This document shows positions 637 to 21,131 of a stretch of 34,041 nt of DNA, in pieces. The DNA is from Planctomycetota bacterium (GTDB lineage: Bacteria > Planctomycetota > Phycisphaerae > FEN-1346). How positions within the stretch are numbered: position 1 is the stretch's first letter; each line of letters begins with the position of its first letter. The DNA is taken from positions 1 to 34,041 of the forward strand of contig JADHXV010000005.1 in assembly GCA_016782785.1 (NCBI GenBank), read 5' to 3'. A program made the position numbers and the translations under genes. The notes under the pieces are model-generated. The model ran no database searches. It was not told where the DNA came from and was given only the letters and a program-made list of their open reading frames with translations.

Positions 637-1140
637 ATGAAGCGTGCGGCGAAACAAGGTTTTACCCTGGTTGAGATTCTGATTGTGGTCATCATTCTGG
701 GCATCCTGGCGGCCATTGTGATCCCGCAGTTCACCTCGGCCTCGAGCGAGGCCCGCGTCAGCAACCTCATGACCAACCTCCAGACCATCCGAAGCCAGTT
801 GCTGCTCTACAAGACCCAGCACCTCGAGAACTACGCGGCCGACGGTGCCGGCGAGGGCCACGACGAGTTCGAGGACGAGATGTGCTCGTACAGCGATGAG
901 GACGGGGCCACCAACGCTACGCTCGATGCCGACCATCCCTTCGGGCCGTATCTGACGAGCGTCCCCGTCAACCCGCTCTCGGGCGACAACACGGTCCGGG
1001 TGGTCAACAACGCGGCTACGGTGTTCGCGGCGCCTGCGGCTAACGGCGGATGGTACTTCAACGCCGCCACCGGCGAATTCCGGGCCGACCTCGTCGATGC
1101 CCACACCACGACCGACGGCACACTACTGAACGAACTGTAA
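637..1140 (+). CDS. Type IV pilin / major pseudopilin-like prepilin
   Basis: Class III signal KQGFTLVEILIVVIILGILAAIVIPQF; GAAGGAGAT ribosome-binding site at 622-630. Confidence 0.9.
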   Translation: MKRAAKQGFTLVEILIVVIILGILAAIVIPQFTSASSEARVSNLMTNLQTIRSQLLLYKTQHLENYAADGAGEGHDEFEDEMCSYSDEDGATNATLDADHPFGPYLTSVPVNPLSGDNTVRVVNNAATVFAAPAANGGWYFNAATGEFRADLVDAHTTTDGTLLNEL

Positions 1141-1478: not shown

Positions 1479-1793
1479 ATGGCATCTCGCGATCTTCGGA
1501 CCATATCACACGCCCTTATCCTAGTGGCGTTCATGTTGGGTCTCATAGCGGCCGCCCTGTGGCTCCGCGGCGGAGGGCTCGAGCCCCAGGCGTCGGCGCA
1601 AGTCCGGCGGGTATCAACCGAGAAGGAAGGCGGCATCCCCGACTCCGGCCGCCAGCGCATGGACATGATCGCCGAACTCCAGAAGATCAACGGCCGGCTG
1701 GAAGCCATCGACTCGGCGCTGCGAGGCGGCACGTACCGCATCCAGACGCTGGAGGCCAAGGGCGACGCGAAGGCGGATCAAGGAGCGCGATAA
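1479..1793 (+). CDS. Small single-pass membrane protein with coiled-coil-like C-terminus
   Basis: Hydrophobic segment ALILVAFMLGLIAAALWL; stop overlaps the next start (TAATG at 1791-1795). Confidence 0.6.
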   Translation: MASRDLRTISHALILVAFMLGLIAAALWLRGGGLEPQASAQVRRVSTEKEGGIPDSGRQRMDMIAELQKINGRLEAIDSALRGGTYRIQTLEAKGDAKADQGAR

Positions 1794-2329
1794 TGCGGAA
1801 CGGCACTTGCACGGCGGCCGGCACAGGCCGCGCGGGCGGCTTCACCCTGGTTGAACTGATCGTGGTCATCATCGTCCTGATGATTGCGGCGGCCGTGGTG
1901 ATTCCAAACATCGGCACGGCGTCCGACACGCAGGCGACCAGCGCTGCCCGCACCCTGGCTTCGGACCTCGAGATGGCCCGGAACCTGGCCCTGATGACCC
2001 AGCGCCCGCATACGGTGCTGTTCAGCCCGACACGGCAGTCCTACAAGATCGTGGCCGACTACAGCGGCGGCACGTACGCCGCTACGCAGGCCATTCCGCA
2101 CCCGGTGGTGGTCGGCAAGAGGTTCGAGGTGACGCTGGCCGAGCACAACGGCATGGGGAACGTCCAGGTCACGAACGTTTCGTTCGGCGGCGACGCCCGC
2201 GTGACGTTCGACGCCCTGGGCGACCCGTCATCGGCCGGCACCATCACGCTCCAGACCGCCGGCATGCAAATGGAAGTCTCAGTCGCCGGCCTGACGGGCA
2301 GCGTCTCGACGCACCGGGTGACGAACTAG
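1793..2329 (+). CDS. GspH/FimT-like pseudopilin
   Basis: GGFTLVELIVVIIVLMIAAAVVIPNI prepilin motif and GspH-like downstream region. Confidence 0.85.
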   Translation: MRNGTCTAAGTGRAGGFTLVELIVVIIVLMIAAAVVIPNIGTASDTQATSAARTLASDLEMARNLALMTQRPHTVLFSPTRQSYKIVADYSGGTYAATQAIPHPVVVGKRFEVTLAEHNGMGNVQVTNVSFGGDARVTFDALGDPSSAGTITLQTAGMQMEVSVAGLTGSVSTHRVTN

Positions 2330-2346: not shown

Positions 2347-3447
2347 ATGGCCCAGTTGCCCATCGGCGTAGACATCGGAAGCACGGCGGTGCGGCTGGTC
2401 CAACTGTCGGGCAGCCGGCGCGACCTGCGGGTCGTTGACGCCGCCAAGTTCGTCATTCCGCGCGAGGCGATGGCCAGCGACAGCCGGCAGCGGACGTTCA
2501 TCGTCGAGCATCTCCGCCGCCTCGTCAAGGAACGCCGGTTCCGCGGCCGGGAGGCCGTCATGGCCCTGGCGCCGAGCCAGGTGGCTGTCCGCAATATCCG
2601 CATGCCCGACCTGGACGATGAGGAAATCGCCCAGGCCGTCACCTGGGAGGCCCAGAACAAGTTTCCGTTCGACACGGCCACGGCAGTCATCCAGTACCTG
2701 GAGGCCGGCCGGGTGCGCCAGGGCGACGAGGTGCTGGACGAGATCATCGTGTTCGCCTCGCCGCGGGTCGAGGTCGAAAGCCGCATCGAACTGGCCGCCG
2801 AGGCCCGGCTGGAACTGGTCAGCGTCGACACGGTCCCGTGCGCGGTCTTTCGCGGGTTCGAGCGGTTCCTCCAGCGGCGCGAGGACGAGGACATGGTCAG
2901 CGTATTCGCCGACATCGGGGCCGAGACGGCGGTGGCTATCTCCCGCGGCCGGGAGGTCGTGTTCGTCAAGACCATCCCGATCGGGGGCACGCTGTTCAAC
3001 CGGGTGGTGGGCGAGTGCCTGGACCTGGAGCCGGCCGAGGCCGAAGCCCTCCGCCGGCGCATCGCGTCGCGTACGGCCGCCGGCGAGGCCGACCCGCACG
3101 ACCGGGCCGCCCGGGCCGTCGCCGATGCCATCCGGCCGCACCTGGAAGACCTGGCCGACGAAATCGGTCTGTGCCTGCGCTATTACGGCGTGACGTTCCG
3201 CGGCGCGCGTCCGGAACAAATTGCATTCACCGGGGGCGAGGCCCATCACCCGCACGTGACGGCGACGCTGGCCGACCGCCTGGGCATGGAAGCGGCCGTG
3301 GCCGACCCGTTCCGAAACGTGCGGACGGACCACCTGGGCCCGGTGCTGGACCGTCGGGGGATTCGCGCCGAGTGGGCGACGGCGTTCGGTCTGAGCCTGA
3401 AGGGGTTCCACCTGGCCCACGACCACGCGGGCCAGTACGCCGCCTGA
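2347..3447 (+). CDS. pilM: Type IV pilus assembly protein PilM
   Basis: Actin-like fold motifs LPIGVDIGSTAVRLVQL and VFADIGAETAVAIS; position before PilN/PilO-like genes. Confidence 0.85.
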   Translation: MAQLPIGVDIGSTAVRLVQLSGSRRDLRVVDAAKFVIPREAMASDSRQRTFIVEHLRRLVKERRFRGREAVMALAPSQVAVRNIRMPDLDDEEIAQAVTWEAQNKFPFDTATAVIQYLEAGRVRQGDEVLDEIIVFASPRVEVESRIELAAEARLELVSVDTVPCAVFRGFERFLQRREDEDMVSVFADIGAETAVAISRGREVVFVKTIPIGGTLFNRVVGECLDLEPAEAEALRRRIASRTAAGEADPHDRAARAVADAIRPHLEDLADEIGLCLRYYGVTFRGARPEQIAFTGGEAHHPHVTATLADRLGMEAAVADPFRNVRTDHLGPVLDRRGIRAEWATAFGLSLKGFHLAHDHAGQYAA

Positions 3448-3465: not shown

Positions 3466-4056
3466 GTGCGCGAACTCGAATTCTTGCCGGAAGAGTACCT
3501 GCGGGCCCGCTTCCAGCGGCGGATCGGGTTTGTGCGCTCCTGGCTGCTGCTGGCGATCGGGTTGGCGATGGTGCTCTACAGTTTCCAGATGGGGACGTGG
3601 GTCCGCGACGCGCAGGCCGAGTTGGTGGCACTGCGCGGGTCGGGGGCGGCGGTGGCGCCCGACGTCGCCAAGGTCCGCATGCTCCGGGCCGAGGCGCGCG
3701 TGTACAACGAACGGCTCGAGCGGCTCGACGCCCTCCGGCCGGCCCTGGCCGTCACCAACATCCTGGCCGATGTCGTCCAGGCCGTTCCCGACGCGGTGGT
3801 CCTGGAGTGCCTGGACGTGAGCACGTCGCCCGCTGAGTGCGGCGAGAGCCTGACGGTGCGCGTCCAGGGCCTTGCCCGGAGCGAGGAGGGCGTCACCGCG
3901 ATGGTGGCCGGACTCGACGCCTTGCCGCGTTTCACGCAGACGATCCTGGTGGAATCGAGACTGGTCGACGAGACGCCGGACGGCCGGCGGGCTTTCGCCA
4001 TCGAGGCGGAGGTCGTCCCGGAGGCCGCCCCAACGGCGCCGTCCGCCAAGGAGTGA
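3466..4056 (+). CDS. pilN: PilN-like fimbrial assembly protein
   Basis: N-terminal ELEFLPEEY motif, one TM, coiled coil; gene order. Confidence 0.7.
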   Translation: MRELEFLPEEYLRARFQRRIGFVRSWLLLAIGLAMVLYSFQMGTWVRDAQAELVALRGSGAAVAPDVAKVRMLRAEARVYNERLERLDALRPALAVTNILADVVQAVPDAVVLECLDVSTSPAECGESLTVRVQGLARSEEGVTAMVAGLDALPRFTQTILVESRLVDETPDGRRAFAIEAEVVPEAAPTAPSAKE

Positions 4057-4064
4057 GACGAACC

Positions 4065-4703
4065 GTGGCCGAGACCAACGCAACGCGGAAGCCGTCGACG
4101 AACGCCGGGCTCCGGCGACGCTGGGCCGTCGACCGCCGGCAACTGCTCATCCTGCTGGTGGCCGCCGTCATGCTCGCCAGTTTCGGCCTGTTCGTCCTGT
4201 GGCCGAAGCACGAGGAACTGACGCGCCTGGGCATGGCCGTGGGAAACGAGCGGTGCCTGCTGACGCAGCGCGTCTCGGCCAGCCACGAGGGCGTCCTCGT
4301 GTCGGCCCGGATCCCGAGCCTGCGCAAGGCCCGCGACAGCATCGAGCGCCGCCTGCCCGGCGAGCCGAACGTCGCCGAGTTCCTCCGCATGCTGGACGTG
4401 TGTGTGGCCCGGACGCCAACGGTCACGCAAGAGGTGGCCCGGTCGGCCGTCCCGTACACGGGGGGCACGCCGGCCATCGGGCTGTGCCTGATGCTCAAGG
4501 GGCCGTTCCTCGACGTGTACCGCGCCGTGGCCGGCATCGAGGGCATTGAACGGCTCAGCCGGTTCCGGCGGCTGCGGGTCAGCCAGGCCGACGCAGGCGG
4601 CAACGTGGTGGCCGAGGCCGAGATCCTCATCTACTACCTGCCCGACCAGAGCGAGGCAACGAATCAGACGTTGGCCCAGACGCAAGGCGAGACGCGCACC
4701 TGA
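4065..4703 (+). CDS. pilO: PilO-like pilus assembly protein (GTG start)
   Basis: N-terminal TM LLILLVAAVMLASFGLFVLWP and gene order after PilN. Confidence 0.6.
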   Translation: MAETNATRKPSTNAGLRRRWAVDRRQLLILLVAAVMLASFGLFVLWPKHEELTRLGMAVGNERCLLTQRVSASHEGVLVSARIPSLRKARDSIERRLPGEPNVAEFLRMLDVCVARTPTVTQEVARSAVPYTGGTPAIGLCLMLKGPFLDVYRAVAGIEGIERLSRFRRLRVSQADAGGNVVAEAEILIYYLPDQSEATNQTLAQTQGETRT

Positions 4704-4710
4704 GGCCGGC

Positions 4711-5319
4711 ATGAGGGAACCACGAACGATGGCGACACCGTCGAAACACGCGGGCCTTGGGGCAACGCTCCAGGCCTGGTTCTTCGGCGGCCGGCTCCGG
4801 CGGTGGGGGTCGGCGCGGAGCCGCTGGCTGAACGGCGGCCTGACGGTGGCCCTTCTGTTGGCGGGCGTGGTCGCCTGGGTCCTGGCCCTCGTGCAGCCCT
4901 GGACGGTCCGCGCGGCCGACCCCGGCATCGTGCCCGTCAAGGGGCAGTTGACGCCGGACCGGATGCGTGAGGCGGCCGAGGCGGCCAGCCGCGCGCTCGA
5001 CGCCCCGGCCCCGCTGGTGCCCAGGCTCGTTAGCCGGAACCCGTTCCGCTCGGCCGGCGCCCCGGCCGAGCCGCCGACAGCCGGCGGCGAGGCCGACGCG
5101 CTGGGCGTCGCGCCGACGCCCCGCGAGATCGCCGACGTCGTCAAGGACCTGAAACTTAAGGCGACCGTCCTCGGGCCGAACGGCCAGCGGTGGGCGGTCA
5201 TCAACGGCAGCACGTACCAGGAGGGGGAGGAGGTGGCCGGTCTGACGCTTGTCGAGGTCCGGGAAGACCGGGCCAGGCTCCGCCGGGCCGATGTCACGTG
5301 TGTCCTGAAAATGGACTGA
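4711..5319 (+). CDS. GspC/PilP-like inner-membrane protein
   Basis: One TM, then a C-terminal homology-region-like segment LKLKATVLGPNGQRWAVINGSTYQEGEEVAGLTLVEV; immediately upstream of the secretin. Confidence 0.6.
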   Translation: MREPRTMATPSKHAGLGATLQAWFFGGRLRRWGSARSRWLNGGLTVALLLAGVVAWVLALVQPWTVRAADPGIVPVKGQLTPDRMREAAEAASRALDAPAPLVPRLVSRNPFRSAGAPAEPPTAGGEADALGVAPTPREIADVVKDLKLKATVLGPNGQRWAVINGSTYQEGEEVAGLTLVEVREDRARLRRADVTCVLKMD

Positions 5320-5331: not shown

Positions 5332-7287
5332 ATGGGGAGGGAGAGACCCCAACAACCGACCATGCGATGGCGACTGTTCCTGACGGCCGCGCTCCTCGTG
5401 GGCGCGTCGGCCGCCGGGGTCCTGGCGGCCGAACCGCCTGCGGCTGCGCCCACGCCACCGCCCGCCGAGACGGCCGCCCAGCCGGGCTCGGCCGTCAGCG
5501 GCAGCGGCAAGATTGAACTGCACGTCAAGGACGATGCCTTGGCCAACGTGCTGGAACTCTTGTCGCAGCAGTACCGGCTGAACATCGTGGCCAGCAAGCA
5601 GGCCACCGGCCGGGTCACGGCCGACCTCTACGACGTGACGGTCGAGGAGGCGCTCGACGCCGTCTGCAAGGCCGCCGGCCTCGGCTGGGTCCGCGAGGCC
5701 AACTGCATCTTCATCTACAGCAAGGAGGAACTCCAGGCCCAGGCCAAGGACGAGTCGCGCCTCGTGACCGAGGTCTTCGAGTTGAACTACCTCTCGTCGG
5801 CCGAGGCCGCCAAACTCCTGGAGCCGGTCAAGAGCGAGAAGGGCACCATCGCCGTCAGCAGCGCGCCGGAAGAGGGCATCCCCTCCGGGGCGGGCGGCGG
5901 CACGGGCGGCAACACCTTCTGCCTGCCCGACACGGCCGTGGTCCGCGACTTCCCCGAGAACGTCGAGCGGATGCGCGAGATCATCAAGAAGATGGACCGC
6001 CGGCCCCGCCAGGTTCTGGTCGAGGCCACCATCATCCAGGTCCAGTTGGACGACACCACGAGCCTGGGCGTCGACTTCAACGCCCTGGCCGGTGTCGATT
6101 TCCGCGACCTCTCCAACACCGCCACGCCCATCACCGACCCGACCATCATCCCCAACAACAACGCCACGACCGTGGACGCCGCCCAGGCGCCGTACGGCCA
6201 GGTGGCCCAGGTCGGGTTCGCCACGCAGGGCACGGGCCTGAACATCGGCGTCATCACCAATAACGTCTCGTTCTTCATCCACGCCCTCGAAACGGTGACC
6301 GACACCACCATCCTCAGCAACCCCAAGGTCCTGGCCCTGAACAAGCAGCGGGCCGAGGTCATGGTCGGCCAACGCCTCGGCTACAAGACCACCACGGTGA
6401 CCGAGACGGCCAACGTGGAGACCGTCGAGTTCCTCGACACGGGCACCCAGTTGATCTTCCGGCCGTTCATCAGCGACGACGGGTACGTCCGCATGGAAGT
6501 CCACCCGGAGGTCTCGTCCGGCGTCGTCGTGGCCGGACTGCCGCAGGAAACCACCACCGAGGTCACCTGCAACATCATGGTCAAGGACGGGCACACCATC
6601 GTCATCGGCGGCCTGTTCGACGAGGACGTCTCGGTCGGCCGGAGCCAGGTGCCGGGCCTGGGGAACATCCCCGGCCTGGGCTGGCTGTTCCGCAGCAAGG
6701 AAGATTCCACCACGCGCAACGAGATCATCGTTCTCCTGACGCCGCACATCATCGCCGACGAGGAAGACGCCGCCGCCCTCGGCGAAAGCATCCTCTCCGA
6801 CGCCAAACGCCGGTGCCTGGGTCTGAGGGAGGGCTTCAGTTTCTTCACCCGCGAACGCATCACCGTCGGCTACGTCCAGAAGGCCGAGGAGGCCTGGGCC
6901 CGGTACCAGCAGAGCGGCGCCAAGGCCGACCTCGACGACGCTCACTGGAACATGCAACTGGCCCTGAACGTGGCCCCGAACAATCTCAAGGCCCTGCGCC
7001 TGAAGGATAAGATCCTCACCGCCCGGACCGGCGAGCCGTACGCCCCGCCCAACGTCACCATCTGGGACAGGCTCCACGACCGGCTGCGGGCCATCGACGA
7101 GGTCCGCGGCGTGACGATGCCTCGCCTGCCGTACTTCCGCGTCCCCAGCCAGGACAAACCCAAGACCGACGCGCCGACCGCCCCCGCGAAGGATGCCCCG
7201 CAAGCCGGCTCCCGCCCGACTAACGAGAAGGCCAGCGCCGAGACGTCCCGCACGACCAAGACGAGGGAGGGAAACCATGCGAGTTAA
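5332..7287 (+). CDS. pilQ: Secretin (PilQ/GspD-like) with C-terminal extension
   Basis: Secretin signature VGRSQVPGLGNIPGLGWLFRSKEDSTTRNEIIVLLTPHII; N-terminal STN/secretin N domains; about 175 aa beyond the secretin core. Confidence 0.85.
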   Translation: MGRERPQQPTMRWRLFLTAALLVGASAAGVLAAEPPAAAPTPPPAETAAQPGSAVSGSGKIELHVKDDALANVLELLSQQYRLNIVASKQATGRVTADLYDVTVEEALDAVCKAAGLGWVREANCIFIYSKEELQAQAKDESRLVTEVFELNYLSSAEAAKLLEPVKSEKGTIAVSSAPEEGIPSGAGGGTGGNTFCLPDTAVVRDFPENVERMREIIKKMDRRPRQVLVEATIIQVQLDDTTSLGVDFNALAGVDFRDLSNTATPITDPTIIPNNNATTVDAAQAPYGQVAQVGFATQGTGLNIGVITNNVSFFIHALETVTDTTILSNPKVLALNKQRAEVMVGQRLGYKTTTVTETANVETVEFLDTGTQLIFRPFISDDGYVRMEVHPEVSSGVVVAGLPQETTTEVTCNIMVKDGHTIVIGGLFDEDVSVGRSQVPGLGNIPGLGWLFRSKEDSTTRNEIIVLLTPHIIADEEDAAALGESILSDAKRRCLGLREGFSFFTRERITVGYVQKAEEAWARYQQSGAKADLDDAHWNMQLALNVAPNNLKALRLKDKILTARTGEPYAPPNVTIWDRLHDRLRAIDEVRGVTMPRLPYFRVPSQDKPKTDAPTAPAKDAPQAGSRPTNEKASAETSRTTKTREGNHAS

Positions 7288-8383
7288 ACGAGCCATCCTC
7301 TGGGCCGCCGTCGTCGCGGTGTTCCTGGCGGCGGGGTGCGACAATCACATGACCCGCAAGCGGAACGAGGCCGGCCAGCGGTGGGCCGAGTCGCGAGCCG
7401 AGATGGTCACGACCCTGGCACGCCGCTCCTACGAGGGCGGCAACTTCAGCCGCGCTCGCGAGCAACTCGACCCCGTGCTCCGCGCCGCCAACCCGTATGC
7501 GCCCGCCTACGTCCTGGCCGCCAGGCTGGCGGCCGACCAGGGACGCCTGGACGAGGCCCGCGACTGCGCCCGCACCGCCGTCGAGGTCAAGCCCGAGGTC
7601 GCCGAGGCCCACTACGTCCTCGGCACCATTGAGCAGACGCTCTCGCACCGGCCGGAGGCGCTGGCGGCATTCGCCGAGGCGGCGCGCCTCGCGCCGACCG
7701 ACCCGCGCTACGCCCTGGCCGAGGCTGAGATGCTCGTCGCCACCGGCCAGGTCGATGCCGCCGCCGTCGGCCTCGAGGCCGCGTCCGACCGCATGCCTGG
7801 GGCGGCCGAGGTGCATGCGGCCCTCGGCGATGTCTTCGCTCGCCAGGGCCGGTACCGCGAGGCCGCGGACCGCTACCGCGTGGCCCTTCGCCTGAACCCC
7901 GAGAACACGGCACCCACCCAGCGCCTGGCGGTGGCGCTGTTCCAGGCGGGGGCGTACGCCGAGGCCGAACCGATCCTGGCCGAGCTCGAGGTGTCCGAGC
8001 CCGACTTCGCCGTCGGATGGATCCGCCTGACGCGGGCCGACTGTCTTCTGGCCCTCAGGCAAGTGGACCGGGCCCGGGCCCTGTACCAGCGGGGCGTCGA
8101 CGCGGCGCCCGATGACGTGGCCCCGCGGGTCGGCCTGGCACGGTGCGACGTCCTGGCTGACCGGTTGACCGAGGCCCAACGCCATCTTGAAGAGGTGCTG
8201 GTCCGTCAGCCCGAGCATCCTGAAGCGAACGGCCTGCTCGGCTACGTCCTGCTGGCCACCGGCCGGCCCGGCGAAGCCGTGCCGCACCTCAAACTTGCCA
8301 GGAACACCCAGCCCGGCCGCGGCCGGGAGACGATCGAACAGTGGCTTGTCCATGCCGAACAGGCGGTCACGCGCACGCCCTAG
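7277..8383 (+). CDS. TPR-repeat lipoprotein
   Basis: Lipobox VFLAAGC; repeated TPR motifs; overlaps the secretin stop by 11 bp. Confidence 0.8.
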   Translation: MRVKRAILWAAVVAVFLAAGCDNHMTRKRNEAGQRWAESRAEMVTTLARRSYEGGNFSRAREQLDPVLRAANPYAPAYVLAARLAADQGRLDEARDCARTAVEVKPEVAEAHYVLGTIEQTLSHRPEALAAFAEAARLAPTDPRYALAEAEMLVATGQVDAAAVGLEAASDRMPGAAEVHAALGDVFARQGRYREAADRYRVALRLNPENTAPTQRLAVALFQAGAYAEAEPILAELEVSEPDFAVGWIRLTRADCLLALRQVDRARALYQRGVDAAPDDVAPRVGLARCDVLADRLTEAQRHLEEVLVRQPEHPEANGLLGYVLLATGRPGEAVPHLKLARNTQPGRGRETIEQWLVHAEQAVTRTP

Positions 8384-8431: not shown

Positions 8432-9946
8432 ATGCCGTTAAGCGCGTCGCCGCGCCCGAGGGGTCGCGGCGGCGCGGGCGTCCGGTGGAGGTTGGTTGGT
8501 GTGATCGAACTGCGGCGCGTGGCGGCCGTTATTCTGCTCTGTGTCGGCGTCGGAGCGGGCCTGCACCTGTTGCTGGACCCGCTCCGCAACGCCGGCCAGG
8601 GCGCCGCCGACAAGGCGTTGACGCTCGGTGCGGGCGCCGCCTTGGCGGTGCTGGGCGCCATCGGGGGGTATCTCATCGCCCGCATCCCCAAGGAGCGCAT
8701 CCGCGACGTGGCCGACCGCCTCGAGGTGCTGGTCCGTCGCGGCAGGGTGGGCATGGCGTTCAGCGACGCCGAGGCCGACGCCCTCGGCCGTTTCGGCCAC
8801 GCTGTCAACCGGTACCTGGCGTTCGTCAAGGACGAGGTCGAGCAGTCGCAGATAGCCGTCAAGGAACGCCAGATCCAGATGAAGGTCCTGGAGGCCGAGA
8901 AGCGGCACGTCGAGGCCGTCATCCACGCCATCAGCGACGGGGTGCTGGTCATGGACTCGTTCAGCGACCTGGTCCTGACGAACGAAGCGGCCAAGGGCAT
9001 CTTCGGTTTCCAGTTCGAGGCCGGGTCGCGCGTGCCCGTGGAAGAGGCCATCACCGATGCGACGTTCCTGGACCTCCTCAGCGAGATGCGCGAGTCGGGG
9101 TCGCTCGTCCCGCACCGGACCGCCGAGTGGAAGCGGGGCGCGGGCGAATGCGAGCGCGCCTACCGCGTCATCCTGAACACCGTTTTCGAGGGCCGCAAAC
9201 GCGACCGCGTCAGCGGCGTCGTGGCGGTTCTGCACGACGTTACGCGCGAAAAGGAAATCGCGCGGGCCAAGAGCGACTTCGTCTCCAGCGTGTCGCACGA
9301 GATGAAGGCGCCGCTGGCCAGCATCAAGGCCTACACCGAGATGCTGGTCGACGGCGACGCCGACGACCCGGCCGAGGCCCGCGAGTTCCTGGTCATCATC
9401 GCCGGCGAGACCGACCGCCTGACCCGCCTCATCGACAAAACGCTGAACCTGAGCCGCCTGGAATCGGGCCTCATCGCGGCCAACAAGGCCGACCTGGCCG
9501 TCACGGAACTGCTGCGGGCAGTGGCCGAGGTCGTCTCGCCGCAGGCTGCGGCCAAGGGCATCCGCCTCGAGGCCGACCTCGCGCCCCTCTTCTTCCACGT
9601 CCACGGCGACCGCGACATGCTGTACCAGGCCATCCTGAACGTCGTCTCCAACGCCGTCAAGTACACGCCCGAAGGCGGCCACGTGGCCATCTCGACGTAC
9701 CTGGATGACGGTGCTGTCGTCGTCGACGTGGCCGACACGGGCATGGGTGTGCCCGCCGACGAAATCGAACGCATCTTCGAGAAGTTCTACCGGTCGAGCC
9801 GGTCGGCCGACACGGCGGCCGGCACGGGGCTGGGGCTGCCGCTCGTCAAGCAGATTGTGGAGACCATACACGGGGGCCGTGTGGCGGTGGAAAGCGAGGT
9901 CGGCAAGGGGTCGGTGTTCCGGCTCTATCTGCCGGCCGTCCGCTGA
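8432..9946 (+). CDS. Membrane sensor histidine kinase (PAS, HisKA, HATPase); start could be GTG at 8501
   Basis: FVSSVSHEMKAPLASIKAY H-box, NVVSNAVKYTPEGG N-box, GTGLGLPLVKQIVE G-box; two N-terminal TMs. Confidence 0.9.
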   Translation: MPLSASPRPRGRGGAGVRWRLVGVIELRRVAAVILLCVGVGAGLHLLLDPLRNAGQGAADKALTLGAGAALAVLGAIGGYLIARIPKERIRDVADRLEVLVRRGRVGMAFSDAEADALGRFGHAVNRYLAFVKDEVEQSQIAVKERQIQMKVLEAEKRHVEAVIHAISDGVLVMDSFSDLVLTNEAAKGIFGFQFEAGSRVPVEEAITDATFLDLLSEMRESGSLVPHRTAEWKRGAGECERAYRVILNTVFEGRKRDRVSGVVAVLHDVTREKEIARAKSDFVSSVSHEMKAPLASIKAYTEMLVDGDADDPAEAREFLVIIAGETDRLTRLIDKTLNLSRLESGLIAANKADLAVTELLRAVAEVVSPQAAAKGIRLEADLAPLFFHVHGDRDMLYQAILNVVSNAVKYTPEGGHVAISTYLDDGAVVVDVADTGMGVPADEIERIFEKFYRSSRSADTAAGTGLGLPLVKQIVETIHGGRVAVESEVGKGSVFRLYLPAVR

Positions 9947-9967: not shown

Positions 9968-10345
9968 ATGGCTGCAAGGGTCCTGATAGCCGACGACGAG
10001 CCCTGCATCACGGACGTGGTGTCGCGGAAACTGCGCAAAGAGGGGTTCGAGGTCATTGTGGCGGCCGACGGCCAGGAGGCGTACGAACTCGCCATGGCCG
10101 AACGCCCCGACTTCATCATCACGGACCTCCAGATGCCCCGGATGAGCGGCCTGGAACTGTGCGTCCGCCTCGCCGCCGAACTCGCCGAGCCCGTGCCGAT
10201 CCTGATGCTGACCGCCAAGGGTTTCGAACTCGACCCGGCCGAGATCGCCCGTCTGCCCATCCTGGCGGTTATGACAAAACCGTTCAGTCCCCGCGAACTG
10301 CGCGACAAGGTCTGCCAGGCGCTCCAGGACCTTCGCGCGCCGTGA
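9968..10345 (+). CDS. Stand-alone response regulator receiver domain
   Basis: IADDEP, IITDLQMPRMSG, MLTAKG, MTKPFSP motifs; no output domain. Confidence 0.9.
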   Translation: MAARVLIADDEPCITDVVSRKLRKEGFEVIVAADGQEAYELAMAERPDFIITDLQMPRMSGLELCVRLAAELAEPVPILMLTAKGFELDPAEIARLPILAVMTKPFSPRELRDKVCQALQDLRAP

Positions 10346-10352: not shown

Positions 10353-11885
10353 ATGCCGCCCTCGCTCACAACCACGCTGCCCGCCAAACCGCTCACCGTT
10401 CCGAAGGGGCTCGTGGAGGGCGTTCGCGCGCGGACGGGCGTGGCGGTCCACCTGTTCGACCTCCAGGGTGCGCCGCTCGCGGGGGGTGCCGGCGTCGCCG
10501 ACGGTCCGGCGGGTCCCGCCGACGTCGAGACCCTGAGCCTCCTGGCCCGGGCCGCGATCGCCGACGACGCCGATCAGGGCGACGAGACGCCGGCCGGCCT
10601 GGCCGCCGCCTGGCCAATCCGGATTCGCGGCAAACCCGTCCTCGTGGCGGCGGCGGAACTTGACCTGGGGGGCGCCGCCGACACGGCGGTCGGCCGGCAG
10701 TGCCTGGCCGCCGTCGCCGAGGCCGTCCGCGCCCGCTTCGACGAGGCCGAGCGGACCCGGGAATGCGACTCGCTGACCGAGGCCCTGACGCAGAGTTTCG
10801 AGGAAATTTCGCTCCTGCACAACGTGGGCGAGGTTCTGCGGGTCACGCGGCCCATCGGGGGGTTGCTCGAGTACCTGTGCGCGGAACTGTGCGAGATCAC
10901 GGGGGCCGAGGCCGCCGCCGCCTACGTGCCCGACGCCTCCGGCGGCGAGGCGAACATCGTCGTCCGCGGCGACCTGCCGCTCGCCGAGCAGGACCTGCCC
11001 GCCCTGTTTGGACACGTCGCCGAGACCGCCGCCGAGCATGTGCTCATCAACAATCATTGTCAGGAAGACCCCGCGCTGGCCGCCTTCTCGCCGCACCTTC
11101 GGCAGATGGCCGTCGTCCCCCTGGATTTAGGCGACGGGCCCCCCGGCGCCCTGGCCATTCTGAACCGGGCCGGCGCCGACTTCGACAGCCCCGAGGTCAA
11201 ACTCATCCGGTCCAGCGCCGGCGCCGGCGCCGTCTTCATCGAGAACCGCCGCCTCTACAACGAACTCCAGGCGATGATGCTCGACCTGGTCCGCGCGCTG
11301 GTCTCGAGCGTCGACGCGAAAGACCCGTACACGTGCGGCCACAGCGAGCGGGTGGCCCTGACGGCCCACGCCCTGGCGTGCGAGATGGGCCTGCCCGACG
11401 ACCAGGTCGAGCAGGCGTACATGGCGGGCCTCCTGCACGACATCGGCAAGATCGGCACGCCGGAGGCCATCCTCTCGAAGGAAGGCCGCCTGGCGCCCGA
11501 CGAACGCCGCATCGTCGCCGAGCACCCCGGCATCGGCGGACGCATCATCCACGGCATCCGCAAACTGGAGACCATCCGCGAGGCCGTCATCCACCACCAC
11601 GAACGCATAGACGGGTCGGGCTATCCCGATAATCTTCCAGGCGACGCCATCCCGCCGCTGGCCCGGATCGTCGGCCTGGCCGACGCCTTCGACGCCATGA
11701 CGAGCAACCGCCCCTATCGGCCCATGCTCCCGCTGGACGCCGTCATCCGCGAGATCGAAAAGCACAACGGCACGCAGTTCGACCCGGCCGTCGTCGAGGC
11801 GTTCTTCCGCCTCGACATCGAGAACCTGATGGACCAGTTCGCCGAGCACGCCGCGGCCCGGCGCGCGGAAACCAAGAAAGGCTGA
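10353..11885 (+). CDS. GAF/HD-GYP domain protein (predicted c-di-GMP phosphodiesterase)
   Basis: LLHDIGKIGTPE, HHHERIDGSGYP and LADAFDAMTSNRPYR motifs all intact. Confidence 0.9.
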   Translation: MPPSLTTTLPAKPLTVPKGLVEGVRARTGVAVHLFDLQGAPLAGGAGVADGPAGPADVETLSLLARAAIADDADQGDETPAGLAAAWPIRIRGKPVLVAAAELDLGGAADTAVGRQCLAAVAEAVRARFDEAERTRECDSLTEALTQSFEEISLLHNVGEVLRVTRPIGGLLEYLCAELCEITGAEAAAAYVPDASGGEANIVVRGDLPLAEQDLPALFGHVAETAAEHVLINNHCQEDPALAAFSPHLRQMAVVPLDLGDGPPGALAILNRAGADFDSPEVKLIRSSAGAGAVFIENRRLYNELQAMMLDLVRALVSSVDAKDPYTCGHSERVALTAHALACEMGLPDDQVEQAYMAGLLHDIGKIGTPEAILSKEGRLAPDERRIVAEHPGIGGRIIHGIRKLETIREAVIHHHERIDGSGYPDNLPGDAIPPLARIVGLADAFDAMTSNRPYRPMLPLDAVIREIEKHNGTQFDPAVVEAFFRLDIENLMDQFAEHAAARRAETKKG

Positions 11886-11892: not shown

Positions 11893-12228
11893 ATGACCAC
11901 GATCGCCGATGCCTACGGCAGCATGATGGTCCTGTCGGTGGAGCCCGCCCTGACGAGCCAGGAGCACGAAGCGTTCCGCAAGGCCGCCGGCGAGCAGATT
12001 CGCTCGGGAGGCCGGTGGTTCGTCCTCGACCTCTCGGGCGTCGGCTTCTTCGATAGCCAGGGCCTGGAGGCCCTCGTCTGGTTCCAGGAGCAGGTGGCGT
12101 CGGTGGCCGGCATGGTGAAGGTGGCCGGTCTGAAGGGTCTGGCCCGAAAGACCTTCGAGATCGTCCGGTTCGATAAGAAATTCGAGGTCTTTGCCAACGT
12201 GCACGAAGCCGTGAAGAGTTTCCATTGA
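11893..12228 (+). CDS. STAS-domain anti-sigma-factor-antagonist-like protein
   Basis: FVLDLSGVGFFDSQGLEALV with conserved DSxGL serine. Confidence 0.8.
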   Translation: MTTIADAYGSMMVLSVEPALTSQEHEAFRKAAGEQIRSGGRWFVLDLSGVGFFDSQGLEALVWFQEQVASVAGMVKVAGLKGLARKTFEIVRFDKKFEVFANVHEAVKSFH

Positions 12229-12302: not shown

Positions 12303-14072
12303 ATGAGTGCGAATGCGACGACGCGTCGGCGGGCCCGGCTGGGCGACCTTCTGGTCGCCCGGGGCGTCATCTCCGACGAGCAACTTCGCCATGCCCTCGA
12401 GGTCCAGCAGGGCGGCCAGCAGGACCGCCTGATTGGCGAAATCCTCGTCGACCTCGGCTATGCCAGCCAGGAGCAGGTCCTCTCGGCCGTGGCCGAGGCG
12501 TGCGGCGTGCCGTTTGCACGACTTGTGCCGCAGTTGGTCGATTCGGCGGTCCGCAGCGCGCTCCCGGCCTCGTTCATCCAGAAGCACTGTGTCTTGCCGC
12601 TGTTCCGCGTGCGCGACGTGCTGACCGTCGCCATCTGCGAGCCGTCGAACGTCTTCCTGGTGGACGAGATTGCGCACGCGGCCGGCCTGAGTGTCCAGGT
12701 GGTGGCCGCCACCGCCGAGAACATCTACCGGATGCTCGACGAGACGCGTCCGGACGGCCAGGAGACCGCGGCGATGGCCGACGAACCGGCCGCCGGCCTC
12801 TCGCTCGCCGACGGCATCCTGCTGCCGGACGATTACGAGACGATGTACGGCACCTGGCCGGCCGAAAAGGTGGCGGGGCTCTTGATCCGCGAGGCCGTCC
12901 GCGCCCGGGCCAGCGCCATCCACCTGGAGCCCGACGAGAAGGTCCTGCGGATCCGGTTCCGGATCGACGGCACGCTGCACGTGGTGATGCGTCCGCCGGC
13001 CCGTCTGGCCGAGGGGTTGGCGGCGGCGTTCTGCGAGATGCTGGGCGTCTCGGCCAGCGGCAGCCAGGTCCCCGACCATCACCGCAGCGCCCGGTTGCTT
13101 GTCCAGGGCCAGCCCGTCCAGTTGCACGTGACGGGGCTGGGCGGGGCGTTCGGCCGGCGGACCGTGGTCCGGCTGGTTCGCGAGGACGAGGCCACCCGAC
13201 CGCTCGAAAAACTCGGCTGCGACTTCCGCCTGCTCTCGGCCTACCAGGACCTGCTGGCCGAGCCGCGCGGCCTCGTCCTGCTGGCCGGACCACGCGAAAG
13301 CGGCGTCACCACCACGCTCTACAGCACGCTGGGGGCGCTGGACCCGGTCCGGCTGAACGTCTGCACGTTCGAGTCGTCGGTCCACTTCGCCCTGCCGGGC
13401 GTCAACCAGTTTTCGCCGGCGACATGCGGGACGGCGGAGGCGGCCGAGGTGCTGCCGCGGCTCCTGGGCCAGCAGCCCGACGTCCTGGCGCTGGACGGCG
13501 TGCTCGACGGCCGCATCGCACCGCACGTGCTGGAAACCTCGCTGGAAGGGCGGCTGGTGGTGGCCCAGATTCGCGCGATGGACGCCGCCGACGCCGTCGC
13601 CCGGATGTCGGCCCTGGTGCCGCCGGACCTGCTGGCCGAGGCGCTGCGGGGCGTCCTGGCCCAGCGGCTGGCCCGGACGGTCTGCCTGCATTGCCGCGTC
13701 AGCCACGAGCCGCCGGCGGCGCTCAGGCGGCGCGTCGGCCGCACCTTCGGCCCGGTGGAGGAGTATGTCAACGGGCGGGGCTGCTCGAACTGCGGCCAGA
13801 CGGGGTTCCTGGGGCGCATCGGCCTGTTTGAACTGGCGCCGATGGACGCCGGCTTCTCGGACCTGGTCCGCCGCCGCGCCTCCCCCGAGGCGCTGCGGCA
13901 GTCGATTCGCGAGGCGGGTCATCCGTCGATGTGGATCGATGGCATCAACAAGGTGCGGGCGGGAATCACGTCGATCGAGGAAATCCAGCGCGTCCTGGTG
14001 GGGTGCCCGGGCGGTCTGGCCGACGCCGTGCCGGCCGAAGAGGCGGCCGCTACTCCCGGACGTTCTCCTTGA
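12303..14072 (+). CDS. PilB/GspE-like protein with MshEN-like N-terminus and degenerate ATPase motifs (putative pseudo-ATPase)
   Basis: RLGDLLVARGVISDEQLRHALEVQ MshEN-like; ASAIHLEP; GPRESGVTTTLY at the Walker A position; LLGQQPDVLALDGVLDG at the Walker B position; CLHC...CSNC zinc motif. Confidence 0.85.
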   Translation: MSANATTRRRARLGDLLVARGVISDEQLRHALEVQQGGQQDRLIGEILVDLGYASQEQVLSAVAEACGVPFARLVPQLVDSAVRSALPASFIQKHCVLPLFRVRDVLTVAICEPSNVFLVDEIAHAAGLSVQVVAATAENIYRMLDETRPDGQETAAMADEPAAGLSLADGILLPDDYETMYGTWPAEKVAGLLIREAVRARASAIHLEPDEKVLRIRFRIDGTLHVVMRPPARLAEGLAAAFCEMLGVSASGSQVPDHHRSARLLVQGQPVQLHVTGLGGAFGRRTVVRLVREDEATRPLEKLGCDFRLLSAYQDLLAEPRGLVLLAGPRESGVTTTLYSTLGALDPVRLNVCTFESSVHFALPGVNQFSPATCGTAEAAEVLPRLLGQQPDVLALDGVLDGRIAPHVLETSLEGRLVVAQIRAMDAADAVARMSALVPPDLLAEALRGVLAQRLARTVCLHCRVSHEPPAALRRRVGRTFGPVEEYVNGRGCSNCGQTGFLGRIGLFELAPMDAGFSDLVRRRASPEALRQSIREAGHPSMWIDGINKVRAGITSIEEIQRVLVGCPGGLADAVPAEEAAATPGRSP

Positions 14073-14934
14073 CCTGTTCGATCTTCTTCAGAATCCGGGC
14101 GCGTTCGCGCTTGCCCTTCTCGTCCTTGTCGGAAATCTTGTCGTGCACTTGCCGGTACATCTCCAGGGCGGTCTTGGGGTCGCCGCCCTGCAGGAAGGCA
14201 TCGGCCACCTTCTCGGCGAACTTGGTGTCGCTGTACCGCTGTTTCTCGGGCTTGGCTTCGAACAAGGCCTTGTACAGCGCCAGCGAGTGCTTGTAATCGC
14301 CGAGACGGTGGTACATGTCGGCGATGGACTCGGTCAGTTCGTTTTCCTTGAGCCGCTCGCTCTCGGGGATCATGGCGTACACCTGGAGGTAGTGCGCGAG
14401 GGCCGGCCGCCATTCGCCCGCCTGCTCGTACAGGTTCGCGATCTTCTCCAGGTTGGTCCGGTGCTTGCCCATGACGCGCGACGCCACGCCCTCAACCTGC
14501 ACCTTGATCGGCTCCGGGGCGTCCTGGGTCTTCTGCTGGAGTTGCTGGACCTGCTTGATAAGCGGCAGGAACTGGGCGTCGAACCGCTGGACCTGCTGGG
14601 CCGAGGCCACGATGAACGCCTTGAACTTCATCAGGTCGCCGGACCGATCGCCCTTGGCGAGCCGGCCGGGAACCTTGCTGGGGTCGTCGACGAGGCTGTT
14701 GGCCTTCTGCTGCATCTCCATGATCTTGCCCATCAGGGCGAATTCTTGCTGCTGAAGGGCCGAGAGCCGCTCGTCGATGACCTGGATCTTCTTGCTGATT
14801 TCCTCGCTTTCGCTCTCGGTGTCGCCTTCGCGCGTGTACGCGCGGGCGCCGGCGGCGCTGCCGATCAGGACAGCGGCCGCGGCCGCGAGCAGCACCAGCC
14901 GCCGCACCGACGATGTCGGACGATCGTTTCTCAT
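14050..14934 (-). CDS. Secreted/periplasmic TPR protein
   Basis: N-terminal signal sequence LVLLAAAAAVLIGSAAGARA; TPR-like repeats; converges on and overlaps the PilB-like gene by 23 bp. Confidence 0.7.
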   Translation of the reverse strand: MRNDRPTSSVRRLVLLAAAAAVLIGSAAGARAYTREGDTESESEEISKKIQVIDERLSALQQQEFALMGKIMEMQQKANSLVDDPSKVPGRLAKGDRSGDLMKFKAFIVASAQQVQRFDAQFLPLIKQVQQLQQKTQDAPEPIKVQVEGVASRVMGKHRTNLEKIANLYEQAGEWRPALAHYLQVYAMIPESERLKENELTESIADMYHRLGDYKHSLALYKALFEAKPEKQRYSDTKFAEKVADAFLQGGDPKTALEMYRQVHDKISDKDEKGKRERARILKKIEQVKENVRE

Positions 14935-15007
14935 GGTTCGGCCCTCGCTCTTCGAGCGTCCCGGGACGCGCGACGCGTGCGAGCGGGCCGCAGCCGCCGA
15001 CCGGCCG

Positions 15008-15319
15008 TCACCCCTCGATGGCGGTAACGCGGACGGTCAGGTACGACTGCCGGTGCCCCACGTGGGTCCGGGACCTCTTTCGCCGGCGGACCTTGACGAC
15101 CTCGAGTTTCGGCCCCTTGTCGGGACCGATGACCTCGGCCGTCACCTTGGCCCCCTCGATGAGGGGCTTGCCGACCCGCGCGCCCTTCTTGTCGGCGACC
15201 AGCAGGACCCGGTCGAACGTGATGCTGGCGCCAGGCTCGGCGTCGCGGGTGTCGATCTGGATGGTCTGGCCTTCCTCGACACGCAGCTGCGTGCCGCTGT
15301 CGTCGATAATGGCGTACAT
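15008..15319 (-). CDS. rplU: 50S ribosomal protein L21
   Basis: MYAIIDDSGTQLRVEEGQTIQID ... VVKVRRRKRSRTHVGHRQSYLTVRV is characteristic of L21. Confidence 0.9.
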   Translation of the reverse strand: MYAIIDDSGTQLRVEEGQTIQIDTRDAEPGASITFDRVLLVADKKGARVGKPLIEGAKVTAEVIGPDKGPKLEVVKVRRRKRSRTHVGHRQSYLTVRVTAIEG

Positions 15320-15498
15320 TGGACTCTCCGAACTCTCCGCACGATGACCCTGTCGGACAAACCGCGTCAGTGTACCGCCGGCGGGTGTTGGAATCAAGCG
15401 CCATTCGGCCGTAAGTACGGACGACCCCGGCAGTTGCCTATTCGCGCCGCCTGGGCCGTGCATGTGACCGTACCCGAGCGGAAGCGTGGGACAAGGGC

Positions 15499-15609
15499 TG
15501 TCATTCTGAGCGAGCGCAGCCCGTACGGGCCGTTTTCGTTGCTGTTTCACTTTTTGCCGGGTGTGACAGCGAGATTCTTCGTCGCCCTTGCGGGCTCCTC
15601 AGAATGACA
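15499..15609. repeat. MITE/REP-like element with 12-bp terminal inverted repeats
   Basis: TGTCATTCTGAG (15499-15510) and CTCAGAATGACA (15598-15609). Confidence 0.6.
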
Positions 15610-15721
15610 TTCGCTGCAGGCGAGCGCCGCTGCCGTGCCGCCCCCCGCCCGCGCAGGCGCTTGAACCCGCCGGCGCGGCGCGGTAAAGTGCCCGTTCCGC
15701 CTGATGCGACAAGGACGCCCC

Positions 15722-16933
15722 ATGGCTACGGTGCCCGATGCGAGCGGCCGGTTCGGCCCCTACGGGGGGCGGTACGTCCCCGAGACGCTCATGGCCGCCC
15801 TCGAACAACTCGCCGACGCCTACGCCGAGGCCCGCGAGGACCCCGACTTCCAGCAGCAACTCGACTACCTGCTGAAGCAGTACGTGGGCCGGCCCACGCC
15901 GCTCTACTTCGCCCGACGCCTGACGGAGGCCTGGGGCGGCGCACGCGTGTACCTGAAGCGCGAAGACCTGACCCACACCGGCGCCCACAAGATCAACAAC
16001 ACGGTCGGGCAGGCGCTGCTCGCGGTCCGCATGGGCAAGACCCGCCTGATCGCCGAGACGGGGGCCGGCCAGCACGGCGTGGCCGCCGCCACCGGGGCCG
16101 CCCTGATGGGCCTAGAGTGCGATATCTACATGGGTACTGAGGACATGCGCCGCCAGCGCCTGAACGTCTTCCGCATGCAGGCCCTGGGGGCCCGCGTCGT
16201 CGGCGTCGAGACCGGCCAGCGGACCCTCAAGGACGCCATCAACGAGGCGATGCGCGACTGGATGGCCACCGTCGAGCACACGCATTACTGCTTCGGCACC
16301 ACCGCCGGGCCGCATCCGTTCCCGGTCATGGTCCGCGATTTCCAGTCGGTCATCGGCCGCGAGATACGCCGCCAGTGCCAGAAGCAGGAGGGATGCCTGC
16401 CGACGGCCGTGGTGGCGTGCGTGGGCGGCGGCTCGAATGCCGCCGGCGCCTTCTTCGCCTTTCTCGACGACGAGGACGTTGCCCTCGTGGGCGTGGAGGC
16501 GGGCGGCCGGGGTCTGGCTTCCGGCCAGCACGCCGCGCCGCTCTGCGCCGGCAAGCCGGGCGTCCTGCACGGCTCGCTCTCGTACGTCCTCCAGGACGAC
16601 GCCGGCCAGACGCTGCCCGTCCACTCCGTCAGTGCCGGCCTCGATTACCCCGGCGTGGGGCCCGAGCACGCCTACTGGAAGGACACCGGCCGCGTCCGCT
16701 ACACCAGCGCGACCGACGACGAGGCCCTGGCGGCATTCGTGGAACTGGCCCGGACCGAGGGTATCGTGCCGGCCCTGGAGTCGTCGCACGCCCTCGTCGA
16801 GGCCAAAAAGATGGCCCCCGAGATGGACCGCCGCGACGTCCTCGTCGTGAACCTCTCCGGCCGGGGCGACAAGGACGTGGAAGAGGCCGCACGCCTTCTC
16901 GGCGACGGGCTGGCGAAAGGACCCTCGGCGTGA
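15722..16933 (+). CDS. trpB: Tryptophan synthase beta chain
   Basis: [37 protein letters not shown] lysine motif; GGGSNAAG. Confidence 0.95.
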
Positions 16934-17739
16934 ACCGCGTCACCGCCGTCTTCCGCCGCCTGCGCACCGAACGCCGGGCCGCCTTCATGCCGTTCATCGC
17001 GGCCGGTGACCCCAGCCTCGAGGCCACCGAGGCCATCCTCCGCACGCTCCAGGACCGCGGCGTGGCCGACCTCGTGGAACTGGGCGTCCCGTTCTCCGAC
17101 CCCATCGCCGACGGGCCGACCATCCAGGCCAGTTACCAGCGGGCCCTGGCGCGGGGCGTCACGCCGCAGGCCATCCTCGATACGGTCGAGCACCTGCGGG
17201 GCGGGGGCCTGGAGATGCCCGCGTGCCTGATGGTCTCGTACTCGCTCGTCTATCGGCCGGGGATGGAGCGGTTCATCGAGCGTGCGGCCCGGGCGGGCGT
17301 GGACGGCTTCATCGTGCCCGACCTGCCCGCCGACGAGGCCGGCGCGCTGGAGCAGGCCCTGACGGCGGCCGGCCTCGTGTACGTGCCGCTGGTGGCGCCG
17401 ACCACAACGCCCGCCCGCCGCGAGAAGGTCGTCGCCCACGCCACCGGGTTCATCTACTGCGTGGCGGTGACCGGCATCACCGGCGAACGCCCTGAACTTC
17501 CGAAGGATCTGGATGCGTACGTGCGCGGCATCAAGGAAGAGGCCAAGGCGCCGGTCTGCGTGGGGTTCGGCCTGTCGCGGTCGGAGCACGTTAAGGCCGT
17601 CGCCGAGGTGGCCGACGGCGCCATCGTCGGCAGCGCCATCATCCACCGCATCGCCGAGTGTGGCCAGGCGCCGCCCGCCCGCATCGCCGAGGCCGTGGCC
17701 GACCTCTGCGCCGACCTCTCGGCCCCGCTGCGCGGGTGA
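16930..17739 (+). CDS. trpA: Tryptophan synthase alpha chain (GTG start)
   Basis: [11 protein letters not shown] and [18 protein letters not shown] signature; GTGA overlap with the trpB stop. Confidence 0.95.
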
Positions 17740-17748
17740 TCCGCGGGC

Positions 17749-17851
17749 CTTCCTCTCCCTCAATGGGAGAGGGATGGGGTGAGGGTGAAACGCCGCGAAG
17801 GAAGCCCACACCCCCCTCACCCTGCCCTCTCCCGCCAGGGGAGAGGGAAAC
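17749..17851. repeat. Palindromic CCTCTCCC...GGGAGAGG / GGTGAGGG...CCCTCACC intergenic repeat
   Basis: Two hairpins within a larger inverted arrangement between convergent genes. Confidence 0.65.
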
Positions 17852-17888
17852 CACGGTGGCGCCTGCGCCGCTGCCGTGCCACCCGCCG

Positions 17889-18452
17889 TCAATCCGACCC
17901 GCCGTGCGGCCGGAGCAACCCTTCGATCTGCTCCTGCAACTTGTCCGTCATGCCGCGGACATGCTCGATGTCCCACCAGGCCCGGAACGCCGGCGGCGTC
18001 ATCTGCGTCGGCAGCCCCGGCGGGACCTTCATCGGCAGGACCATCGGCCCGGCCCCGCTTGTGCCCTTGGGCGGCGCGAGCACCAGGTCGTACTGCGCGG
18101 GGTCCGTCGGCCGGTACGTGATGGTCCGGCCGGTGCGCGTGGCGGTCGGCAGGGCGGGCCAGTCGGGCGGGGCCGTCTCACGCATCTCGGCCACATCCTT
18201 CGGCAGCCGGCCACGCTGGGCGTAGAACCAGGCCACGTGGCGCGACAGGTCCGCCACCGCCTCGTCCTGCATCGCCTGGATGGCCTTAAAGGCGGGATCG
18301 GCGGGCGCGACCGTGCCCGTGCCGGGCGACCGCTCGGGCGATCGCTCGCACCCGCCAGTTAGGTACCACATGATCATATATAGGCTGGCCAGGACGGCCA
18401 TCGACGCCAGCACCGTCCAGCGTTTGCTCTGCCACGACCCGGGCTCAGCCAC
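17889..18452 (-). CDS. Hypothetical membrane-anchored protein
   Basis: N-terminal TM; no family recognised. Confidence 0.55.
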   Translation of the reverse strand: MAEPGSWQSKRWTVLASMAVLASLYMIMWYLTGGCERSPERSPGTGTVAPADPAFKAIQAMQDEAVADLSRHVAWFYAQRGRLPKDVAEMRETAPPDWPALPTATRTGRTITYRPTDPAQYDLVLAPPKGTSGAGPMVLPMKVPPGLPTQMTPPAFRAWWDIEHVRGMTDKLQEQIEGLLRPHGGSD

Positions 18453-18467
18453 GCGCGTCTCCTGCGT

Positions 18468-19844: not shown

Positions 19845-19954
19845 GCGGCGTGTATTATAGCAGGTTGCGTGCCGGCGTGTCACCCGGCGCCGGGGCGGAG
19901 GCGATGACCGGTCCTCGGGGGGTGAGACGAGCGGTGCGTGAAGGGGCGCGCCAA

Positions 19955-20044
19955 TCGGCCCCCGAAGGGGGCCCAAGAGAATAGCCCACGGCGTCAGCCG
20001 TGGGTCAGGAAGCGCCGCGAGAACCCGAGCCCCGGAGGGGCGCA
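19955..20044 (+). repeat. REP-like palindromic element, left of the RAYT gene
   Basis: CCCACGGCGTCAGCCGTGGG (19985-20004) plus GCCCCGGAGGGGC; near-copy at 20846-20937. Confidence 0.75.
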
Positions 20045-20049
20045 AGACC

Positions 20050-20502
20050 ATGTCCCATTCCTACGCCTCCCTCTTGACGCACGTGGTGTTCAGCACGAAG
20101 GACCGCGCGCCGCTGATTGCCGACGAATGCCGCGGGAGGTTTTTCCCGTATCTCGGCGGCATCGCCCGCGAACAGGGGGCCAAGGCCCTGACGATCGGCG
20201 GCACGGTCGACCACGTGCACCTGCTCCTGTCGCTGCCGCCCACGTGCTGCGTGGCGGACGCGCTTCGCGACCTCAAGGCGAATTCCTCGCGATGGATTCA
20301 CGAAACGTGGCCCGATCGCCGCGCGTTCGCCTGGCAGACGGGTTACGGGGCGTTCAGCGTCAGCGAATCGAACCGCGAAGGCGTTCTCCGGTACATCCGG
20401 GAGCAGGAGCGACACCACCGGCGGCTGACGTTTCAGGAGGAGTTCCTGGCGCTTCTGAAAAAGCACAAGATTGCATATGATGAGCGATATATCTGGGTGT
20501 AA
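20050..20502 (+). CDS. REP-associated tyrosine transposase (RAYT; IS200-like Y1)
   Basis: TKDRAPLI, HUH motif GGTVDHVHLLLSLP, Y1 region GYGAFSVSESN..VLRYIREQERHH; flanked by palindromic repeats. Confidence 0.85.
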   Translation: MSHSYASLLTHVVFSTKDRAPLIADECRGRFFPYLGGIAREQGAKALTIGGTVDHVHLLLSLPPTCCVADALRDLKANSSRWIHETWPDRRAFAWQTGYGAFSVSESNREGVLRYIREQERHHRRLTFQEEFLALLKKHKIAYDERYIWV

Positions 20503-20523
20503 CGCTCCGGCGTTTCTGCCGCC

Positions 20524-20813: not shown

Positions 20814-20845
20814 TGGCGACGGTCGGCCCCCGAAGTGAGCGACGG

Positions 20846-21107: not shown

Positions 21108-21131
21108 CGAAAAACGGCGAAGGGGTCCACC

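Follow-up and report, generated by a model that had tools for sequence, protein, structure and literature searches.

The window, by which we mean the whole 34,041-base stretch analyzed here, is a complete contig (C33) from a Planctomycetota genome of 2.68 Mb that is 75% complete. It carries an operon resembling those of type IV pili, running from prepilin-like genes to a gene for a relative of the ATPase PilB (Table 1), and the order pilins-PilM-PilN-PilO-PilP-like-secretin-TPR-histidine kinase-response regulator-GAF-HD-GYP-STAS-PilB is kept across several families in the loci that we examined. The operon's HD-GYP gene in G002 (L047:8107-9472, -) matches as two overlapping pieces, which suggests a frameshift or an assembly error. 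Farther along the window lie genes for an alpha-L-fucosidase-like protein (25369-26520, +) and a GH10 glycosidase (26564-27979, +), both unrelated to the pilus operon.

Table 1. Genes of the pilus-like operon in the window, and features within the pseudo-PilB gene.
Feature	Position	Strand	Basis or remark
Prepilin-like protein, N-terminal methylation motif GFTLVEILIVVIILGILAAIVIPQF	637..1140	+	Pfam N_methyl
GspH-like pilin	1790..2329	+	Pfam GspH and N_methyl; synteny
PilM	2347..3447	+	Pfam PilM_2, 125.9 bits; synteny
PilN	3466..4056	+	Pfam PilN
PilO-like	3990..4703	+	Position and synteny, without a Pfam match; exact start uncertain
PilP/GspC-like	4714..5319	+	Position; T2SSB slightly under cut-off
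Secretin (PilQ-like)	5332..7287	+	Pfam Secretin, 145.6 bits
TPR protein	7193..8383	+	Start uncertain; overlaps the secretin end
Sensor histidine kinase	8432..9946	+	HisKA and HATPase; PAS slightly under cut-off
Single-domain response regulator	9968..10345	+	
GAF-HD-GYP protein, putative c-di-GMP phosphodiesterase	10353..11885	+	Pfam HD_5/GAF_2; HD and GYP motifs intact
STAS-domain protein	11893..12228	+	Pfam STAS; next to PilB at the family loci and most wider loci
Pseudo-PilB, 589 aa: MshEN, N2D, dead ATPase core, zinc tetracysteine	12303..14072	+	Profile matches, alignment
MshEN motif I RLGDLLVARGVISDEQLRHALEVQ, residues 12-35	12336..12407	+	Agrees at every position with the published 24-residue c-di-GMP consensus
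MshEN motif II LIGEILVDLGYASQEQVLSAVAEA, residues 43-66	12429..12500	+	Degenerate, with Ala for the final Gln
Walker A position GPRESGVTTTLY, Lys to Val (GTC 13305-13307)	13287..13322	+	DNA read as GGACCACGCGAAAGCGGCGTCACCACCACGCTCTAC
Convergent TPR protein, at the PilC position of other lineages, outside the operon	14050..14934	-	Marks the missing PilC

The frame of the PilB relative is open from its ATG at 12303 to the stop at 14072 and codes for 589 residues; a longer reading from a TTG at 12225 is available, and orthologue alignments begin near the ATG. In Pfam searches the product matches T2SSE (PF00437) with 205.5 bits over profile positions 7-370 of 370 and MshEN with 49.2 bits, and it scores 52.6 bits against the NCBIfam c-di-GMP-motif model NF053729 (cut-off 38). 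Its match to the PilB model TIGR02538 has an E-value of 5e-88 yet falls far under the equivalog cut-off, and its top PDB matches are the PilB entries 5tsg and 5zfr. By these comparisons the product is a genuine full-length relative of PilB, sharing with the PilB/GspE/MshE ATPases (T2SSE, PF00437; TIGR02538) homology over its full length, the MshEN, N2D and CTD domains, the zinc tetracysteine and a place in a PilMNO-secretin operon. It differs from them in keeping only a single mapped nucleotide-site residue and in having no PilC in its operon.

In a search of 61 relatives the orthologues scored above 330 bits and stood clear of the paralogues, which reached about 302 bits at most. The family of the window is represented by six genomes from six genera, two of them about 75% complete, and an orthologue is present in all six, each time in degenerate form; the copy in G004 is cut by a contig end, and the copy in G003 lacks its N-terminus for the same reason. 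Residue roles follow the numbering of G. metallireducens PilB, in which E357 binds Mg, R271 is the Arg finger and E395 is catalytic (PMC5424180), and were transferred by alignment. The Lys of Walker A is V, L or I in 6/6 family members, the Val codon of the window copy being more than one base away from AAA or AAG. The Mg-binding E357 has become H, G or N, the Arg finger R271 has become H or Q, the catalytic E395 after Walker B has become G or C, and H413 and H420 have given way to other residues, again in six of six members in each case. In the window copy the His box reads LVVAQIRAMD, with equivalents in the other members, and the canonical His box is absent. R286 is the single mapped nucleotide-site residue that has not been replaced, while the pore-loop residues D398/E400 are likewise not conserved in the family. 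The zinc tetracysteine (CxxC...CxxC) is retained in all five copies that reach that region, and the family shares an invariant new P-loop motif, AGPRxSG(V/L/I)(T/S)TTLY, which occurs as GPRESGVTTT and GPRESGLTTT in two members each and as GPRDSGVTTT and GPRWSGISTT in one each. These replacements support the view that the PilB of this Planctomycetota family is non-hydrolyzing. The earlier note on this DNA had quoted the Walker A position, the Asp box, the Walker B region and the His box, and reading the ORF confirmed all four as quoted and where they had been placed; its claim that the Asp box is lost holds for the Mg-binding second Glu, which is gone, but not for the first Glu of TFE, which is retained.

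Outside the family, all 24 orthologues sampled are canonical, two of them from sister-family genomes and 22 from the rest of the class. Because the loss is seen in six of six family genera and in none of the wider orthologues, it is not a matter of chance. A sequencing or binning artefact is ruled out by the same loss in six separate genomes, among them MAGs labeled CSMAG, fen, LacPavin and DeepCast 400m. We also searched at the DNA level with the pattern G-P-x-x-(S/T)-G-(V/L/I)-(S/T)-T-T-L-(Y/H), Phe being permitted for Leu, which matched in 55 of 398 class genomes and gave 0 matches as a reversed control; outside the family, 44 of the 49 pattern matches were read, and every one is a different paralogue. 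The narrower GPRxSG(V/L/I) gave no further case among 392 genomes sampled across the phylum, and a blastn search of plasmids gave no match.

In a maximum-likelihood tree the six family PilBs form a clade with 100/100 support, which groups with the canonical operon PilB of the sister family with moderate support (83/93). The family stem measures 1.44 substitutions per site, as against 0.23-0.34 for the tips, which are of ordinary length, and we place the loss of ATP binding and hydrolysis, as predicted from the replaced residues, once on this stem. Within the family the pairwise dN/dS of the pseudo-PilB is 0.25-0.41, values to be taken as guides with dS near saturation; in the same operon it is 0.24-0.49 for PilM and 0.37-0.54 for the secretin, which makes the pseudo-PilB comparable to PilM and at or under the secretin. 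Such ratios support purifying selection on the pseudo-PilB after the catalytic loss. The open frames and a dN/dS in this range, not near 1, led us to reject pseudogene decay. The earlier note had proposed a search of relatives for a conserved K-to-V loss, which proves to be V, L or I in all six family genomes, and it had named intact Walker motifs in sister genomes as a possible objection. They are intact outside the family and lost in 6/6 genomes within it, and this result therefore dates the loss rather than refuting the reading. That the gene is not a pseudogene is borne out by the family-wide conservation of the loss, the purifying selection and the open frames.

We then set the family-to-sister distance of each domain against its sister-to-class distance. 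The two values were 1.47 and 1.30 in MshEN and 2.00 and 1.45 in the zinc end, as against 3.67 and 0.70 in N2D and 2.55 and 0.59 in the ATP core. N2D and the ATP core have diverged 4-5 times faster than normal, whereas MshEN and the zinc end have not, and most of the change has therefore fallen in the motor domains. Within the family MshEN shows the highest conservation of all domains (71% mean identity), while canonical relatives show the reverse.

The family also differs at the position of the platform gene. At all seven loci compared outside the family, a PilC gene (Pfam T2SSF) comes after PilB, in some cases with PilT in between. PilC was not found downstream of PilB in the window or at L046, L047, L049 and L048; in the window, L046, L047 and L049, what follows PilB is a TPR gene in convergent orientation together with an L21 gene, with tryptophan synthase genes further on where the contig reaches. 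In a PilC tree the operon PilCs of other lineages fall together with no family member among them, the 20 family PilCs that it includes are all assigned to other clusters, and support for separating family from operon PilCs is only 78/78. The nearest family clade (C227/C31/C86/C219) is a paralogue rather than a moved operon PilC, because it also holds the sister-family protein G007_C110, and on the strength of this tree we rejected relocation of the operon PilC elsewhere. Catalytic loss and loss of the local platform go together, and the absence of the cognate PilC makes it more likely that the local motor was lost as a whole; plain replacement in trans would explain the loss of PilC equally well.

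Motif I of the MshEN domain follows the published consensus, RLGxx(L/V/I)2xxG(L/V/I)2xxxxLxxxLxxQ, at every position in the window copy, as it does in 4/5 family copies with an N-terminus but in only 1/24 canonical relatives, most of which have Gln or Pro at the position of the Arg. Among the canonical operon PilBs of the wider class (L022, L024, L026-L045) motif I mostly starts with Gln or Pro, and in this order it starts with Arg. Motif II departs from the consensus in the window copy, with Ala for Gln and Val for Leu. The Gln of this motif contacts the ligand (PMC5013675, PMC11731258), and it is absent from the family and from the canonical wider-class copies alike. The extended MshEN consensus accepts Leu at the first position of motif II (PMC11731258), and in Xanthomonas GspE changes in several conserved residues abolished c-di-GMP binding (PMC5013675). 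The ligand itself is likely to be available to the pseudo-PilB, because every family genome has 4-6 GGDEF matches and the operon codes for a putative phosphodiesterase. Binding of c-di-GMP by this MshEN domain is plausible, and it may be weak or absent because the Gln of motif II has been lost.

Canonical PilB/PilC sets are present in each family genome, and that of the window has three PilCs linked to a PilB. The leading candidate for an in-trans motor of the window operon is a PilB-PilT-PilB-PilC cluster on contig C105 (L012:1435-7728, -), which both families of the order have conserved and whose contig has no secretin or PilM match. A second PilM-secretin locus, conserved in the order, lies on C78 (~14586-23947), a contig with no T2SSE or T2SSF match, and might be served by a pair of genes on C46. 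This pair (L011:1636-3585, - and 3438-4781, -) combines a T2SSE protein with a PilT-like ATPase whose P-loop is normal, and thus an active ATPase with a dead one. The T2SSE protein is itself a pseudo-PilB, with GPKNSGVTTTLH at Walker A, GPKKSGVTTTFY and similar versions across the pair's relatives, and no MshEN match in the window genome's copy. Close equivalents occur across the class (L093-L099, L111-L154), usually with the PilT-like neighbor in view, and in the sister family the Walker A Lys is Arg. In the tree the C46-type pseudo-PilBs form a separate clade with 100/100 support, which led us to reject a common origin with the pseudo-PilB of the window, and since the clades are separate, the two types arrived independently at the same hydrophobic substitution for the P-loop Lys. 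The two types are alike in a convergent Walker A, SG(V/L/I)TTT(L/F)(Y/H), in the loss of the other motifs and, in the order's copies, in the retained zinc motif. They differ in that the C46 type stands beside a canonical PilT-like ATPase and occurs in many families, besides the separate clade and the missing MshEN match.

Our preferred reading, held with slightly better than even confidence, is that of a domesticated pseudo-ATPase: as PilB of a conserved T4P-like operon, the protein would have lost ATP binding and hydrolysis once, the operon losing its PilC as well, and been kept as a nucleotide-independent sensor or scaffold subunit of the PilMNOP-secretin complex. Its MshEN domain would dock on the PilM-PilN-PilO base, as PilB does on the PilM ring, and would read c-di-GMP, the local level of which would be set by the neighboring HD-GYP protein under the control of the histidine kinase, the response regulator and the STAS protein. 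The V/L/I P-loop would hold the ATPase fold permanently apo-like, and this fold could relay the c-di-GMP state as a signaling or scaffold surface, much like the nucleotide-free M. xanthus PilB that has been proposed as a signal for exopolysaccharide. Docking, c-di-GMP reading and relay through a nucleotide-free fold are steps that we infer. Filaments might still be assembled from the operon's pilins by PilB and PilC of another cluster in trans, or assembly may have been given up. The pseudo-PilB probably serves in signaling or as a scaffold, not as a motor. The interpretation given in the earlier note agrees with ours on a non-hydrolyzing, retained protein and on true PilBs encoded elsewhere, a second intact copy having been sought and four canonical PilBs found in the same genome; its c-di-GMP-responsive character is plausible only, as motif I fits the 24-residue consensus but motif II is without its ligand-contacting Gln. 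A broader statement is more tentative and falls somewhat short of an even chance: that the family turned a motor into a sensor-only PilB found in nature, a nucleotide-independent subunit of the PilMNOP-secretin complex that reads c-di-GMP, and dropped PilC, and that the class converged on the K-to-V/L/I change in a second pseudo-PilB paired with an active PilT-like ATPase.

The main rival is a heteromeric or stacked co-motor, in which the dead PilB would join an active PilB from another locus, either within one mixed hexamer or as one of two paired rings, and tune pilus extension. The four canonical PilBs of the genome speak for it, as does the presence in the same lineage of a pseudo-PilB beside an active PilT-like ATPase; PilT Walker mutants still support retraction with PilU, the separate homohexamers being thought to pair (PMC6821130), and PilB-TfpB hetero-oligomers have been discussed as possible (PMC11656802). 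However, the operon has lost its cognate PilC and holds no active partner, its PilB has not conserved the pore-loop residues, and R271 and the His box, with their inter-subunit roles, are missing as well; we consider a co-motor rather unlikely. With PilC and, as read from the sequence, ATPase activity both locally missing, the pilins, PilMNOP, the secretin and the pseudo-PilB might instead form a non-pilus envelope complex without an extension motor, in which the pseudo-PilB would be a static base plug. The C78 locus, with neither T2SSE nor T2SSF on its contig, suggests that motor-less secretin complexes may exist in the group, yet the window operon retains prepilin-type genes with methylation motifs, which have no obvious use without assembly, and other PilB/PilC sets are available in trans, which makes such a complex improbable.

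The long stem branch and the many conserved residues lost would also suit a slowly decaying relic of a redundant PilB. This account is disfavored and very improbable beside frames that are open in six genomes as far as the contigs reach, the low dN/dS, the new invariant P-loop motif and the retained zinc cysteines and MshEN domain. The kept R286 and the overall P-loop shape (GPxxSG) could be taken to mean that ATP is still hydrolyzed by an unusual mechanism, but the replacement of the Lys, the Mg-binding Glu, the catalytic Glu, R271 and the His-box residues in 6/6 members leaves this hardly credible.

The reading of the protein as a domesticated pseudo-ATPase has a close counterpart in M. xanthus, where a Walker A mutant PilB that does not hydrolyze ATP supports exopolysaccharide without pili and the nucleotide-free form has been proposed to signal (PMC5544727). 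The M. xanthus protein likewise has the MshEN motif, and a non-hydrolyzing PilB can still signal there, but that is an engineered mutation in a working motor, whereas the loss described here is natural, fixed and family-wide. The PilT/PilU pair of Vibrio cholerae (PMC6821130) similarly illustrates that an ATPase-dead ring can be useful beside an active paralogue; there, however, PilT was inactivated by mutation in the laboratory and the two proteins together power retraction, while here the protein is a PilB relative without a known partner. In the open-access literature we found no description of pseudo-ATPases in type IV pili or of PilB in Planctomycetes. Signaling by PilB apart from its motor role has so far rested on engineered mutants, and a lineage that has dispensed with the chemistry of the motor and with its cognate platform gene while keeping the sensor offers a natural case of separation of function. 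It points to the apo ATPase fold and MshEN as a selectable unit, and makes a non-ATP role of PilB directly testable. It also calls for caution, as a protein annotated as PilB/GspE in Planctomycetota can be one that is unable to act as a motor.
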